DNA of 64,000 bases from Dillenia suffruticosa (Eukaryota > Streptophyta > Magnoliopsida > Dilleniales > Dilleniaceae), in contig JAVTVX010000001.1 in assembly GCA_033439265.1 (NCBI GenBank), forward strand, positions 20,044,608 to 20,108,607, written 5' to 3'. The translations under genes were made by a program, and so were the position numbers. The notes under the pieces were generated by a model. It saw only the letters and a list, made by a program, of their open reading frames with translations, had not been told where the DNA came from and ran no database searches. Below, piece by piece: positions 11,772-49,850 of the stretch (within the stretch, counting starts at the first letter, position 1; the number at the start of each line of letters is the position of its first letter).

Positions 11772-14700
11772 ATGGAAACCGTTGGTTGTTGCAGTTTCTG
11801 TCTTGCATCGTTCCACACACTCTCTTCTTCTCTTCCACGACTTGTCTTTACCCCCAATCTTCTTCCTCTCTCTCTCTCTTGTTCTTATCGCCTCAGTTTT
11901 CAATCCAAAATTTCATATCTCTCTCCTCCTCTCAGAAATCCCATCTCCAAAGTAGCCACTCTCTGTTCCTCATCAACGGAGACTTCTCATCAAGTTCACG
12001 CCTCCTCCACTCTGGGTACCTCTTCTCTCTCTTTCTCTCTATCTCTCTCCTCTTTTTCGTTTATGGGGTATTTTAAATCTTGCTTTTTTTTGGGTTAATT
12101 AAGGTTCGACGAGTAATGAATTGGAAGTTTCAGTTTCATCGTCTATTAAAGTTGGAGAGAATGATATGCTGATCGTTGGTCCAGGTGTTCTTGGTCGCTT
12201 GGTTGCTGAACAATGGCGTCAGGTATAACGTTTGACTAAGTAAATTACGTGTGAAATTTATGTTGCTCAAACTTGTCTACATTAATTCAATTACAACTTT
12301 TGACGTATTCCTCAGTTGTTTTTCATTCTAGTAACTTAGATTGCTTCTTTTTCTAGGCTACAAATAAACATTTGTTGTTTGGCTTTCTGGGTATCCAAAA
12401 TTTGGAGTAATCATCAAAAATTGTTCACATTCAAGTTTATTTTGAAGAAAGAAATGTTGAAAGTGTTTTGTTAATGGTATGATTAGGAGCACCCAGGTTG
12501 TCAAATTGTTGGGCAGACGGTGACGACTGATCATCATCATGAAGTGATTAAAATGGGGATTAGTCCATCATTGAAGGGGATGGGGATGGATCATAAGTTT
12601 CCTTATGTCATCTTCTGTGCCCCTCCATCTCGAACCTCGGACTATCCTGGGGATGTCAGGTAAGGATAGTTTACATCAATTGATTTTGGTTGCAGAAGTT
12701 CTGGATTTACCTTGGAAATCTTGATATATCTTGTGAAGGAGAATTATCTAGTCTAATTTACATTATGTGAAAAATGCTAGAAGCATTGACATTTTTTAAG
12801 TGAATTCTCCTTGTTTGAATTTTTAATATCAATGTACTGCCTTTCTACCCTTAAAATTATGACTACTAGACTATCAAGGTGGTTCCCCAGGTGGACGTGG
12901 GAAACACTCACTTCATATTCTCGAGGTCCTAGATTTGAATCTTGCTATTGCCGAAGACCTTCTGAGTTATGAAGGGCACCGTGGCTACGGGCTCATTCTT
13001 CCGCAGTACCTACCACTCAAATTAAGCGACCTCGTAGTAATTTTCAGAGGGGAAAGCGAAACTGCTTGCCCCGTCACCCTTTTTGTGAAGAAATAAAATT
13101 ATGACAGCAAGTTTCGTGCGATTATGACCAATACTGAGAGTAAACTGTGAACCTACTGCAGACTGGCTACGTCAAACTGGAGTGGTGCAGGTTCCTTCCT
13201 GTTCACATCAAGCTCTGCCCCATATGATTGCTGTGACAATGGATCATGTGATGAGGTGCTGCATTTACATCTTTTGTTTTTTGGGGGGGGGGGGGAGGGG
13301 GGTGTGTGTGCATGCATAGGTACTTGCATAGGTAATGATCGTTCACTTGACGTATCAACCACTTGGTCTACTTGTGTGTTGTGTTTATTGTCTCAATCTT
13401 TTATAAACATGGTGCTGTAGATTTTTGGGAGAAATCGATAAAACTATAGAGACTCCTGTTACCTTACAAGTGAAGGCTAAAACTGAGACCAACATCCTGC
13501 CTTTCGATTTTGCTAGTTGTGAGGCACATTCATTTGCCCTCTTGGATTTCTGGCTGCATTCAAATGCACAATCTAAGCTGCATTCTACATCAAATGGCTT
13601 AAAATGTCCCAAATTTTGAGCCATATTGGTATAATTGCGATGAAAATTAACATTGTTGTTCATCGCCATGCAGGATAGCCCTATTGTGCCAATAGGAAGG
13701 AGTCCAAGGATAGATGTTCTCCTAAAAGCTGAAAAAGTAGTAGTGGAGTCTGGCGGTTGTGTTCTTCGACTGGCAGGCCTTTATATATCCTTTTTATCCA
13801 GTTTCCTTAGGAAAATAAACCTGAGGGATTCCAAAGTAATGTACCAAACTTAACTGCTAACACAAAGAGGATAGAGGTGCTCACTCTTACTGGCTGGAGA
13901 GAGGGACTGTTGATATTCATCCAGATCATGTCCTAAATCTTATACATTATGAGGTAATAAGTTCATCTCCTCTTATTTCTATTTTATTTGCTCGAAAGCT
14001 CAATATATATTGGGTTCATATTTCCTACTTATCCCCTCATTGCTTTTCATGCTCATAGTTGAGAATTCAACCAAAGCTGGTAGCCAAAGGCTAGCAACTT
14101 GAAATGTTACGTATGCTCCTTTTTTTTTCAAAGAATTTAGACTTTTAAGTTCAGTTCTGCAAGCCAGTTTCAAATAGGCCAGGGTGTTGAGTGTTGCAAA
14201 GTAGTATATCAGCGCGGCTTACATGCAAACTTGTCAAATAAGTAGCTTTCCCTGTGGCAGTTGCCATAGAAATCCTTAGCTTATTGCTAGTGTTTGTTGC
14301 ATCCTGCATATTCTTATCCTTCATTATATCACAACAACTTTGACTTAAGTAAATTATGTTGAATACTGTGATTGATCTTTGTTCTGGTTCTCCGGAGCAG
14401 GATGCAGCTTCTCTCTCTATTGCAATATTGAAGAAAAAATTACAGGGTCGAATTTTCCTGGGTTGTGACAATCATCCCCTATCCAGGTCTCTCATTAGTC
14501 TTTACTTTGAATCGATGATGTGTAGTTATTTTCCAATATATATATTATAAAGACCCAATTTTCCGGAATATTATTCATTTAAATTAGTAAACTTACTGCC
14601 CTCCTGTAATGTCATGATTGCAGGCAAGAAGTGATGGACTTAGTTGATAGGAGTGGAAAATTCAGAAAAAAATTTCAGGCTTTCACAGGTTAGTATTATG

Positions 14701-14865
14701 TGGTTCATATTCTCTGTTGTTAGGTGGTTCTCAATTACGTTCAATCTTTGTGCAGGTACTAGTGATCCTTTAGGTAAGAGACTAAACAATTCAAAGACGC
14801 GGAAGGAAATAGGATGGCAACCAAAATACCCAAGCTTTGCTCAGTTTCTCGGATTATTGGAATAA
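11772..14865 (+). CDS. Plastid-targeted NAD(P)-binding Rossmann-fold protein (YeeZ-like/extended SDR)
   Basis: Nine exons: 11772-12015, 12104-12222, 12487-12659, 13162-13255, 13674-13784, 13864-13953, 14401-14486, 14624-14688 and 14756-14865. They total 1092 bp, or 363 residues, with all phases consistent. Residues 1 to about 80 are Ser/Leu-rich with few acids, a likely chloroplast transit peptide. Then MLIVGPGVLGRLVAEQW is the dinucleotide-binding GxGxxG-like turn. ATSNWSGAGSFLFTSSSA is the strand and Ser-rich segment of atypical SDRs. YWLERGTVDIHPDHVLNLIH and GWQPKYPSFAQFL near the C-terminus match the YeeZ-like family. The substrate is unknown. Intron 5 (13785-13863) has AT-AC ends and a U12-type donor; the other introns read as GT-AG. 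The start at 11772 was chosen because its frame gives the transit peptide and the correct phase. Intron 3 holds a possible SINE. Confidence 0.9.
12880..13090 (+). repeat. tRNA-like SINE candidate in intron 3
   Basis: The block has A-box-like (caggtggacgtgg) and B-box-like (gatttgaatc) motifs about 50 bases apart, followed by a GC-richer body. It lies wholly in an intron. There is no poly-A tail or clear target duplication, so this is a weak call. Confidence 0.35.
13785..13863 (+). other. U12-type AT-AC intron (79 bp)
   Basis: The intron starts ATATCCTTTTT, a full match to the U12 donor consensus ATATCCTT, and ends in AC (ctaacAC). A branch-site-like cTTAAC lies 10-11 bases before the end. 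Removing it joins GGC CTT TAT to AAA GAG GAT in frame (GLY-KED). No GT donor is available near the exon end, and reading through soon reaches a stop. Confidence 0.9.
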
Positions 14866-31508: not shown

Positions 31509-32762
31509 ATGTCTCTTGGTATCAATTTTCACACACTAAAAACACTACCTTTCAAAACCTGTGTTTATGGCTTCAACAATCAAATTCGGGGAAACCCATT
31601 TGTTCAGAGACTTAAAAATCATTCACTGAGTTCATTACAGAATTTTAGACTTCGCAGGAAAAGAATCAGAGCCTTTTCTGCATTGACTGTAACAACTGAG
31701 ACCGACCCAATTGTTAAGACAGATCCTTTTTCATTCAGAAGCAAAACCCCTAATGAAATCAATGTTCTTGTAGTTGGGTCAACTGGGTATATTGGAAAAT
31801 TTGTTGTTAAGGAGTTGGTGAAAAGGGGTTTTAATGTAATTGCTGTTGCAAGAGAGAGGAGTGGAATTAGAGGTAAAGATGGCAGAGAGGATACCTTAGC
31901 CGAGCTAAATGGGGCAAATGTGTGTTTTTCGGATGTGACTCATTTGGATTCTCTGCAGAAATCTTTGGAGAATTTAACGTTTCCTATTGATGTTGTCGTG
32001 TCTTGCCTAGCAAGCCGCACTGGTGGCGTTAAGGATTCATGGAAGATTGATTATGAGGCTACTAGGAATAGTCTCGTGGCTGGTAGAAAATCTGGTGCTA
32101 GTCATTTTGTTTTGTTGTCTGCAATATGTGTGCAGAAACCCCTTTTGGAATTTCAGCGTGCAAAGCTGAAATTCGAGGCTGAATTGATAAAAGAAGCCGA
32201 GGAGGATGATAGGTTCACTTATAGCATTGTGAGGCCAACTGCATTTTTTAAGAGCTTGGGCGGTCAAGTTGAGTTGGTGAAGGATGGGAAGCCCTATGTG
32301 ATGTTTGGGGATGGAAATTTGTGTGCTTGTAAGCCAATTAGCGAGCAAGATTTGGCTTCATTTATTGCAGATTGTGTGTTAAAAGAGGATAAGATTAATC
32401 AGGTTCTGCCAATTGGGGGACCCGGGAAGGCTCTAACACCATTAGAGCAAGGAGAGATGTTGTTTAGACTACTGGGTAAGGAGCCAAAGTTCATAAAAGT
32501 GCCTATCCAAATTATGGATTTTGCTATTGGGGTTCTCGATTTCCTCGTTAAGATATTTCCTTCAATGGAAGATGCTGCTGAGTTTGGGAAAATCGGGAGG
32601 TATTATGCAGCCGAGAGTATGTTGGTTTTGGACCCTGAGACTGGAGAATATAATGCTGATCAGACACCTAGTTATGGGAAAGACACATTAGAGGAGTTCT
32701 TTGCAAGAGTACTCAGGGAAGGAATGGCAGGACAGGAATTAGGTGAGCAGATGTTTCTATAG
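31509..32762 (+). CDS. DVR: Divinyl (proto)chlorophyllide 8-vinyl reductase, chloroplastic
   Basis: This single exon encodes 417 residues, the usual length for plant DVR (Arabidopsis PCB2, also intronless). Residues 1 to about 60 form a basic, Ser-rich chloroplast transit peptide. From residue 86, [11 protein letters not shown] gives the NADPH-binding Gly motif of atypical SDRs. It is followed by [13 protein letters not shown], the family segment [28 protein letters not shown] and [15 protein letters not shown]. The enzyme reduces the 8-vinyl group of divinyl chlorophyll precursors to ethyl with NADPH, inside the plastid, in chlorophyll biosynthesis. No defects are seen. The ATG follows a leader region that begins after AT-rich DNA; the next in-frame ATGs lie far inside the mature protein. 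Confidence 0.97.
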
Positions 32763-44289: not shown

Positions 44290-46757
44290 TTGTGTTTGGA
44301 AACTATAAGACTTTCATTTAAACAAGTTAAAGCCTGTAAAGGCCATATGACATATAACATCCCCATTAACTTGGTGAGACTTATTGTGTTCACAATTTCT
44401 AATGGTGATACCTCTATTATCTGGAATTGAGAGATTCTCCCTGCTTTTAAACCCGGGCAGAGGTTAAGATAGGGAGACCCCCTCTCCCTGTATCTCTTTC
44501 TTTTGGTTATGGAGAGACTTGCATTGATGATTCAAGAGAAAATTAGGAAGGGGATATGGAAGCCTATCAAGGTAGTGAGAGGAGGCCCAACGATTTCTCA
44601 TCTCTTTTTGCTGACGATTTAATCCTTTTCGCGGAAGTGAAACACTTAAACCTTAGTAATATTCTTAACTGCCTGAAAGAATTCTCAGAGGAGAGTGGTC
44701 TCCAAATCAATCCGGCTAAATCCAAGATTTGGATATCTCTGAATGCTCCAAGACATCTGAGAGCCTCCCTCGTCACGTGCAGTAAGTTTGTGATTACTGA
44801 AAACTTGGGTAACTATCGGGGTGTGCCAACCATCCACGGGAGAGTTGGGAAGGACTTTTATCACAAGTTGGTGGAAAGAGTGCAGGATAAGCTTAGCAAT
44901 TGGAAGGCCAAGACCCTAAGCACCGCGGGTAGAAGAACACTTATTCAGTCAGTAACGGCTTCAATCCCGATTTATACCATGCAGACGGCTTAGTTATCAG
45001 AGAGCATTTGCAAAAAGTTAGATAAAATGAATAAGGATTTCTTTTGGGGTAGTAGCGAAGGAGCCAAGAAGACTCACCCAATGAGCTGGAAAGCAGTTTG
45101 CGACTGCAAGCAAGATGGCAAGGGAGTGCAATGTGGCAATAATAGCCAAATTGGATTGGAGAGTCTTGAAGAATAATGGGGCATTGTGAGTGAAGATTTT
45201 GAAGAGCAAATATCTTAGGGGAGACAGCTTGTTGGAGCATAAAAAGAGCAACAACTCTTCCGCTTTGTGGAGAGGCATTTGCTCTAGCAAAGATTGTATT
45301 AGGAGGGGCCTCAAATGGCGAATAGGGGATGGTAATTCCATTAGTTTCTGGGCTGGCCGTTGGCTTGGCAAGGATATGTTATTGAGGGCTGCTCTTATCT
45401 CGCAGGAGGCCTGCTCTTCAGGTATCAAAGTTAATCATTTTTGGGATGTGAAAGGTAAGTGGAAGATGGAGGAGTTAATGGTGGTCTTCCCAAGAGACAA
45501 AGTAGATCAAATAAGAGCGATGCCTATTCCTTGTGACAGATCCAACAGTGATTCTTTATTCCGGAGCGAGAGAGCAAACGGTGATTTTTTGGTTGCTTCG
45601 ACGTACCGACTCCAAAGAAGGTCCTACTCGATTCACCAGATGGTTGAGGAAGCTTGGAGGTGGATTTGGAGGGTGAAATGTCCTGAGAGGGAGAAGATTT
45701 TCTTGTGGCAGGCTGCTAAAGGAAAAATCCTCACTAAAGTGGAGCTCAAGAGAGGTATGATTAGTGTGGACCTCTGTGATATCTATGGGAAAGAGGAGGA
45801 ATCAGTGACTCATGCCTTAAGGGATTGCATTCATGCTAGTAACATCTAGAAGCATTTGTTAAAGGATAACTTCTAAACTGAATCCGGGTATACTTGGCTA
45901 AACTATGGGGTATGCAAAAAGTTTCAGCTCGGTTTGGTGAATGAAGTTGTGGGGTTTGCTTGGGTAGTATGGTCCATATGGAAGTTTAGATGCAGCTCTA
46001 TCTTCCGACGCAACGTGGATCAGCCTAAGCAAGTCGCTAATAGAATTTTATGTACGATCAAGACTTTCCACAATAGTCCTACTTTTGCTAAAGAGGATGA
46101 GGATGTGATCTTGGTGAAGTGGATGAAGCCGGCAATTGGAAGAGTGAAGCTTAATGTCGATGGTGGAACCAATCTCGAGGATGGTCATGCCGGTGATGAG
46201 GGCCTCTTTAGAAACTCTAGTGAGGAATGGCTCCATGGATTTTGGGCTAACGTGGGTGTTTCGAAAAATGACTGGGTAGAGTTATGAGGGCTAAGTGAAG
46301 GGTTAAGGATAGCGAAAGAAAAAGACTTTCAGAACTTAGAGATAGAATGTGACTCTTTGAAGGTAGTCTTGGTTGTGAACAAGGGTGTAGGCATTAATCA
46401 TCCATAGAGAAACGTTATTCTCGATTGTAGGATGTTAATGAAGGAGCTAAGCACTTCAACCATTTCCCATGTGTACAGGGAGGCAAACAAATGTGCGGAT
46501 AAATTAGTTGAGTTAGGTAAAGTTATCCATCATGGGATCATCGAGTTTGGCACCACTCCTGTGGTAGAGCCTTTTTGAAAGCTTGATGCAGAGGGAGTTT
46601 CTTGGTCTAGAAGGCGAAAGAAGTTAGCTTCCTCCCATGTCTAACCTCGTGTAGTTTTAGGTCCTGCCTTGCTGCTGCTTTGTTTCCCCCCTTTGTGTCT
46701 TCTGTGTTCCTTTTCACCGGAATAAAAAGTCTTGCCTAACCTTAAAAAGAAAAGTGA
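44290..46757 (+). mobile_element. L1-type plant LINE, 5'-truncated and broken
   Basis: The reverse transcriptase is recognisable from about 44430 (GDPLSLYLFLLVMERLA) through the catalytic FADDLILFAE at about 44605-44634, then GLQINPAKSK and WKAKTLSTAGRRTLIQSV. The zinc-knuckle region that follows the RT (WIWRVKCPEREKIFLWQAAKG, about 45660-45722) is present. A C-terminal RNase H domain is present too (VKLNVDGG at about 46144, EIECDSLKVV at 46340, SHVYREANKCADKL at 46470). The domains lie in several frames with internal stops, for example TAG after residue 145 of the RT frame. The 5' end with the endonuclease is missing. The 3' end is near 46757, with only a short A-rich tail. Age is moderate, and it is not autonomous. 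Confidence 0.92.
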
Positions 46758-47987: not shown

Positions 47988-48578
47988 CAAACAAGTCAAA
48001 AACAAAGTTTTTGGAAAATGTTATTCAAAATTTTCGAATTTCTTAATTATGAAAAATGTTTTAAGACTTGAGACTTTCCTCGTGTTGATAATTTGTTTAA
48101 ATTCAAGTTTTTCAATATATTTTCCTTATTAATTTTGGTTTGTATTTTCATTAAATACCTAGAATTTTGTTGGTTTAATCTTAACGGTCCTCTGTTTTAA
48201 CTAGTCATGTACAGATTTACTTTCATTAGATTTCTTAAGCTAAGGAAACTCCTTTGCAATATATGCCAACATCTATCGAAAAATAATTTGATATTATTTT
48301 AAGGATTTTGTATAAAATACAAGAACCAAAATTTTCTCTCACAATCTTTGTCCTTATTAATTAGGTGCAAGAACAAGCTTTGTGATGCAATTGCTATTTT
48401 TGAAACTATAAGACTAGTCTATACTATCTAGGTAGGTTTATCATAGTTTTTCTCCCCTTCTTTCATCCACCAATGCTCACAAATTTAATCAGCTTTTGAT
48501 CCTGAAACATTTTGCCTGATACCTCTTAAGACCATTTTGCCATTTCCATGCCATCTTTTGGACCTCTATTATATAGCC

Positions 48579-49850
48579 ATGGCTGCTACCTACCTTATTG
48601 TCTTCCTTTGTATGACCTTCACTATTCAATTTAGACCTTGCCATGCAAATGATGCTGGTGCTGGTTTTGTTATTCCTCTTATACACTGCGACTCACCATT
48701 ATCCCCATTCTACAATCCCCACCTAACCTCAACCGAGCGAGTTGGTTTGGCGATTAATCGCTCCATCTCTCGTCTCAATTACTTGCAATCCATTCAATCA
48801 ACATCCTCAAGCAAAGATATCTCCTCTATGTTTTTTGGAGAGAGAGGTGAGTTTGTCATGATGTACTACATAGGCACCCCTCCATCTCAAGTATATGGCA
48901 TCATGGATACAGGAAGTGATGTCATATGGCTTCAGTGTGATCCTTGTACATTATGTTACAAACAAACCATGCCATTTTTTGATCCATCTAAATCCTCTAG
49001 TTACACTAATGTGTCTTGTTTTTCCCTTCTCTGCAAGGGCTATGTTTGCGATGAGGCAACATTTGCTTGTCTAAGTCAACAAACATATGGCGATGGCACC
49101 CAAATGAAAGGAAATTTAGTAGAAGATGTTTTCACTTTCATTGATTCTGACCATAATAAGGTCGTGGCGGGTAGTCTGGCTTTCACTTGTGCTCATGAAC
49201 TTAGAGGAGGGTATTTTGAGGGTATGCAAGGAGGGGTTGTGGGACTTAACCCCCAAGAACTCTCATTGATCTCCCAACTCACCATAAAGAAGTTCTCATA
49301 CTGTATGGTTCTACATGAAGATGAGGGATCGATGAGTCGCTTATATGTCGGATCACAAGCCGTGATATCTGGTGGACAAACATCATTTGCAAACTCACCT
49401 TTCCCATCCCTCTATGCCATTCCTTTCAAGGGAGTAAGTGTTGGGGACATGAAGTTTTCATTTGGAGATGTTGAATTTATGGTCATTGATTCAGGCACAA
49501 CCTATACATATCTTCCTGGGGAACTCTTGGATAAACTAGCAGAAATATTAAGGGAAGCAATAGACTTACCCGAAAGTGACAGTCGAAGTGGGTTTCAGAT
49601 ATGCTTTGAGGGAAGCTTGGATGACTTGTCTTCAGCTCCTGATATAACCATTCATTTTAATGGCACAGATCTCATTCTGAGTAAGGAAACTACTTACGTT
49701 GAAGTAAATGAGAGACTGCAGTGCCTTGCATTTCTTCCCGCTAAATCACATGCAGTTCTTGGGAATTTTCACCAGAGGAACTATTTCGTTGGCTATGACC
49801 TTGAAAACCAACTTGTCTCTTTTGCTCCTGTCGACTGTTCCATGTTCTAA
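48579..49850 (+). CDS. Secreted aspartic protease, nepenthesin/CDR1-like (family A1B)
   Basis: This single exon encodes 423 residues. Residues 1-23 are a signal peptide (MAATYLIVFL core, likely cleavage after CHA). A propeptide follows to about residue 85, including IHCDSPLSPFYNP, typical of the CDR1 group. The catalytic aspartates are D110 in MDTGSDVIWLQC and D304 in IDSGTTYTYLP. The Cys-rich nepenthesin insert lies between (CDPCTLCYKQ, FFDPSKSSSY, C..LLCKGYVC). QTYGDGTQMKG carries the flap Tyr, and the C-terminus LGNFHQRNYFVGYDL is the family signature. It should be an apoplastic or vacuolar endopeptidase. Arabidopsis CDR1 acts in disease-resistance signalling, but a shared role is only inferred. 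No defects were seen. ATG 48579 is the first in frame; the frame upstream of it has no ATG. Confidence 0.95.
   Translation: MAATYLIVFLCMTFTIQFRPCHANDAGAGFVIPLIHCDSPLSPFYNPHLTSTERVGLAINRSISRLNYLQSIQSTSSSKDISSMFFGERGEFVMMYYIGTPPSQVYGIMDTGSDVIWLQCDPCTLCYKQTMPFFDPSKSSSYTNVSCFSLLCKGYVCDEATFACLSQQTYGDGTQMKGNLVEDVFTFIDSDHNKVVAGSLAFTCAHELRGGYFEGMQGGVVGLNPQELSLISQLTIKKFSYCMVLHEDEGSMSRLYVGSQAVISGGQTSFANSPFPSLYAIPFKGVSVGDMKFSFGDVEFMVIDSGTTYTYLPGELLDKLAEILREAIDLPESDSRSGFQICFEGSLDDLSSAPDITIHFNGTDLILSKETTYVEVNERLQCLAFLPAKSHAVLGNFHQRNYFVGYDLENQLVSFAPVDCSMF

Follow-up and report, generated by a model that had tools for sequence, protein, structure and literature searches.

A very probable U12-type AT-AC intron in both copies of an epimerase-like gene of Dillenia suffruticosa

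Within a 64-kb stretch of Dillenia suffruticosa DNA (here called the window; C1:20044608-20108607 of a 596-Mb genome in 37 contigs, with plant-like genes), a gene for a Rossmann-type protein contains eight introns, of which seven are GT-AG and one, intron 5, has AT and AC ends. Judging by its sequence, we consider it very probable that this segment, at 13785-13863 on the plus strand, is a real U12-type spliceosomal intron and an ordinary member of that known class. A second copy of the gene on another contig has an intron with the same AT-AC ends at the same place.

The intron and its host gene

The exon model was built from three-frame translation and splicing by hand, and the features to which the text refers are as follows.

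11772..14865, plus strand: gene of nine exons coding for a Rossmann-type, epimerase-like protein of 363 aa, with an open spliced frame between start ATG and stop TAA
11772-12015, 12104-12222, 12487-12659, 13162-13255 and 13674-13784, plus strand: exons 1-5
13864-13953, 14401-14486, 14624-14688 and 14756-14865, plus strand: exons 6-9
13785..13795, plus strand: U12-type 5' splice site ATATCCTTTTT, with 9-bp pairing to the 5' end of the genome's own U11
13846..13854, plus strand: branch site AAACTTAAC, matching TTCCTTRAY at 6/9 positions with the core CTTAAC whole
13862..13863, plus strand: 3' splice site AC (ACAC in the window, ATAC in the second copy)
13800..13810, plus strand: second U12-branch-site-like stretch AGTTTCCTTAG, with the best U12 pairing in the intron (-8.3)
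13801..13867, plus strand: rival nested intron GTTTCCTTAG...ACACAAAG, from in-frame enumeration

By direct reading, intron 5 is 79 nt long, starts ATATCCTTTTT and ends CAAACTTAACTGCTAACAC. Its removal joins codon TAT to AAA; the junction is in phase 0, follows codon 247 and lies 68% of the way along the coding sequence. If intron 5 is retained, the frame stops after residue 269. An earlier sequence-only reading had proposed a 79-bp AT-AC intron with this join, and its placement proved exact to the base, with the frame open. The donor stretch ATATCCTTT matched the consensus RTATCCTTT at 9/9 positions in the window and in the second copy. CTTAAC lies at 13849-13854 with its As at 13852 and 13853, 11 and 10 nt before the intron end, just as had been described. 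The intron is 66% AT and shows no clear polypyrimidine tract, with pyrimidines at 10/18 positions before its end (0.556) and at 11/18 (0.611) in the second copy. The acceptor in the window is a tandem ACAC, so that pairing donor 13783 with the AC at 13861 would yield an identical protein; the second copy lacks that AC.

The donor 8-mer ATATCCTT occurred three times on the two strands of the window against 4.4 expected, a count so near expectation that the donor alone proves little. The full signature was defined as ATATCCTT, CTTRAC within 200 nt, AC 8-17 nt past the second A, and a length of at least 60 nt. With both strands of the window searched, it was found at a single donor, that of intron 5, against 0.067 expected from 60 first-order Markov simulations, and this donor falls where the protein frame requires an intron.

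The encoded protein matched PDB entries 3ius (E 3e-9) and 3gpi (E 0.005), which are the basis for linking it to NAD-dependent epimerase-like proteins, and a comparison with Pfam returned no family at E 10 or better. Residues 1-60 include 13 Ser, 3 Thr, 0 Asp and 1 Glu, a composition that fits a transit peptide. The earlier description of the protein as a plastid enzyme is only partly supported. An NCBIfam match to ribosomal protein L31 was rejected as chance (20.7 bits against a cut-off of 70). A literature search for At1g19690, presumably the locus name of the Arabidopsis relative, found nothing, and no printed report of intron 5 in the host gene was found by a search whose reach left out most subscription journals and supplementary tables.

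The second copy and the choice among splice sites

A genome-wide DNA search with 13664-13960 identified two places, the window itself and a locus on contig C11 with 92% identity. The C11 copy likewise has an open frame across these nine exons and differs at 48 of 363 residues (87% protein identity). Its intron 5 is again AT-AC, with the same donor and a first 24 nt identical to the window, and is shorter through a 2-nt deletion inside the intron. Its branch site, AACCTTAAC, matches TTCCTTRAY at 7/9 positions, one more than in the window. Of the eight introns, intron 5 differs least between the two copies, with 92.2% identity without gaps against 80.6-90.5% for the others. That 13785-13863 is not translatable through in frame would suit a reading in which there is no intron and an assembly error or frameshift breaks the gene; we give this practically no credence, as the second locus, on its other contig, repeats this layout with an insert that differs in length (77 nt), and its frame is otherwise open. 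At the far end of the gene, intron 8 of the C11 copy (L003 4230-4296) is GC-AG, and its window counterpart at 14689-14755 is GT-AG.

The choice among splice sites was scored against relatives of the protein. A first scan of genomic contigs with the two plant proteins found no relative, and a second scan, led by PDB 3ius, gave 583 confirmed relatives, the best 80 of which were kept; by their titles, these 80 were nearly all from Rhodobacteraceae or related Alphaproteobacteria, and they are closely related among themselves, while sharing only about 28% identity with the plant protein. A profile from the best 80 was used to score all in-frame, stop-free products with at least 60 nt removed between GT-AG, GC-AG, AT-AC, AT-AG, GT-AC or AT-AA ends, which gave 125 choices for the window and 123 for the C11 copy. 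AT-AC 13785-13863 reached 38.4 bits, tied for first place with 13783-13861. The best GT-AG choice in the window, 13801-13867, stood at 30.3 bits. The AT-AC intron of the C11 copy was likewise first at 39.7 bits, followed by an AT-AA choice at 38.9, with the best GT-AG choice at 32.2.

Loop length gave a second measure. In 80/80 of the kept relatives, three residues separate an RxxG[IL][YF]-type motif from the next R[GSND], and the more distant PDB 3gpi sequence likewise reads GIYGPGR. Splicing as AT-AC leaves three residues (KED), the GT-AG choice at 13801-13867 seven, and AT-AG ending at 13869 one.

These scores bear on the alternative that the donor is the same and the acceptor another, either AT-AG 13785-13869 or a nearby AT-AA, with the loop slightly shorter or altered. 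Such choices are in frame: AT-AA 13787-13865 had 37.6 bits, 0.8 below AT-AC, a small margin that rests on one residue, and AT-AG 13785-13869, AT-AA 13785-13866 and AT-AA 13785-13860 had 33.8, 33.8 and 33.7. Among the non-canonical minor introns of plants, AT-AA is also reported to be the most frequent type (PMC10639083). Against this, AT-AC was top-scoring in both copies, the second copy has AA in place of the AG at 13869, the donor at 13787 starts ATCCTTTTT and is without the U12 consensus, and AT-AG is described as disfavoured (PMC3584512). We consider a shifted acceptor extremely unlikely.

Pairing with the genome's snRNAs and the nested GT-AG choice

The genome carries recognizable minor-spliceosome parts. 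Two U12 loci scored above the Rfam cut-off (94.7 and 93.8 bits), both with GUAAGGAA and both preceded by ATCCCACATCG, which we take to be the plant snRNA promoter element. U11 gave two matches above cut-off (71.7 and 42.4 bits), with a ATCCCACATCG-type element at the first only. For U6atac, 16 loci were above cut-off, and the top-scoring one, L095, carries AAAGGAGAGA and is preceded by an element of similar kind; among eight U6atac-like loci inspected by eye (L095-L102), a promoter-like element was noticed at L095 only. The remaining U6atac-like loci may be pseudogenes.

In calculated duplexes with the genome's own U11, the intron 5 donor reached -8.0, compared with -0.4 to -4.6 for the seven other donors of the gene. 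The order was reversed for U1, whose sequence was assumed: +2.4 for the intron 5 donor against -5.3 to -11.5 for the other seven. The branch site paired with U12 at -5.2 in the window and -5.7 in the second copy, compared with -8.6 for the consensus. The second branch-site-like stretch paired better; it contains TTCCTTAG within 13803-13810 (intron positions 19-26), reads TTCCTTGA in the second copy and is identical there through TTTCCTT. At about 20 nt from the donor it is probably too near to serve. The earlier assignment to the U12-type AT-AC class is supported by the signals, the second copy, the loop length of the relatives and pairing with the genome's own U11.

The main rival has the true intron as GT-AG 13801-13867, removed by the minor spliceosome from a GTTTCCTT donor with the same branch site, or both alternatives in use. 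The sequence-only reading had held that no usable GT lies near the exon end, and here it was mistaken, because the GT at 13801 and the AG at 13867 are in frame and stop-free. This holds in both copies (in the second at L003 3381-3445, 31.7 bits), and the donor and the AAAG acceptor are kept in both. Moreover, GTTTCCTT is one base off the U12 donor GTATCCTT and pairs with U6atac at -10.4, compared with -7.9 for the intron 5 donor, and moderately with U11 at -6.3. With the two copies sharing about 92% identity in this region, the fact that both keep the nested donor carries no significance of its own. Splicing at 13801-13867 would net four added residues, with GLYISFLSKDRG replacing GLYKEDRG, and its loop of seven residues stands against three in all the kept relatives. 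It also scored below AT-AC by 8.1 bits in the window and 8.0 in the copy, its donor pairs poorly with U1 (-1.4), and T instead of A at +3 is unusual in U12 donors. We regard it as very unlikely that GT-AG 13801-13867 is the true intron or shares its use, and the GT at 13801 marks a possible minor isoform. A related arrangement, in which nested U12-type donors share one branch site in both copies, AT-AC giving the usual loop and GT-AG 13801-13867 the loop with four more residues, seems to us quite unlikely; if it were true, the loop of the protein could be switched by factors specific to AT-AC introns, DROL1 for example.

We infer that in the plant the preferred AT-AC reading of 13785-13863 is the one spliced. 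U11 would pair with UAUCCUUUUU at the 5' end of intron 5 and U12 with CUUAAC; U6atac would then take the place of U11, and the minor spliceosome would join TAT to AAA, so that the product would retain the three-residue loop after the RLAGLY strand. A requirement for the minor spliceosome would follow from the intron's class. Splicing would probably also need a DROL1/TXNL4B-type factor. DROL1 is described as the plant orthologue of TXNL4B, and Arabidopsis AT-AC-type U12 introns are reported to require it (PMC11039992). A DIM1-family search of the genome gave matches on C24, C26 and C30, and two C30 pieces joined by eye gave 1.3e-28 against TXNL4B and 4e-8 against the U5 15-kDa protein, so that a TXNL4B/DROL1-type gene appears to be present on C30. 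If intron 5 is spliced as read, its gene is a candidate read-out of minor-spliceosome defects in D. suffruticosa.

Comparison with known introns and other features of the window

U12-type introns are reported to make up <0.5% of introns in any genome (PMC3584512), and AT-AC introns to make up 26% of them in Arabidopsis, 23% in soybean, 22% in rice and 13% in maize in IAOD (PMC7367187); another figure for AT-AC is 4.8% (PMC5932401), and values vary by data set. The earlier statement that AT-AC U12 introns are a tiny share of plant introns agrees with the first two of these sources. Like the plant U12-type AT-AC introns of U12DB, ERISdb and IAOD, intron 5 has a ATATCCTT donor and CTTAAC 10-11 nt from its AC end, and is short, AT-rich and lone among GT-AG introns. 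Its branch-to-end distance of 11 or 10 nt, depending on the A used, is short as in the U12 class, for which an optimum of 11-13 nt is given (PMC3584512). Unlike them, its branch site is less complete than TTCCTTRAY (consensus from PMC5932401) and it is in phase 0. Both its phase and its position in the coding sequence go against reported biases, as U12-type introns are said to be biased against phase 0 (PMC7367187) and to lie toward the 5' end in 112/290 streptophytes (PMC10639083). With U2-type AT-AC introns (AT-AC II) it shares the AT-AC ends; those of sodium-channel genes have G at +5 (PMC2831892), whereas intron 5 has C there and its U1 pairing is unfavourable (+2.4).

CBP20, reported with an AT-AC U12 intron in 10/10 plants compared (PMC5932401), served as a control. 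The D. suffruticosa genome has two copies, on C19 and C30, with AT-AC introns of 1002 and 1035 nt, donor ATATCCTTTTCG, branch site TTTCCTTAAT or GTTCCTTAAT, and an AC end with the branch A 10 nt before it; these ends were picked by flanking codons among three and five listed candidates. Intron 5 resembles this CBP20 intron 4 in its donor ATATCCTTTT, a branch A 10 nt from the end and AT-AC ends in both gene copies, whereas the CBP20 intron is about 1.0 kb rather than 77-79 nt, in phase 1 by its flanking codons, nearer the branch consensus and in another gene.

The picture of U12-type introns is unchanged by these data. What they add is one duplicated pair of genes whose two members have both retained an AT-AC intron, and they confirm a gene model that prediction limited to GT-AG introns would get wrong; non-canonical sites are described as hard for ab initio gene prediction (PMC5716242).

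Elsewhere in the window, all on the plus strand, we observed a tRNA gene at 2603-2674 (70.8 bits), the sole Rfam match above cut-off there, and an intronless 417-aa NAD(P)H-binding/NmrA-like frame at 31509-32762, which may resemble divinyl chlorophyllide reductase. A frame with a reverse-transcriptase-associated zinc-binding domain at 45190-45849 is probably a retroelement remnant, and 48537-49850 holds a 437-aa aspartic protease/xylanase-inhibitor-like frame.
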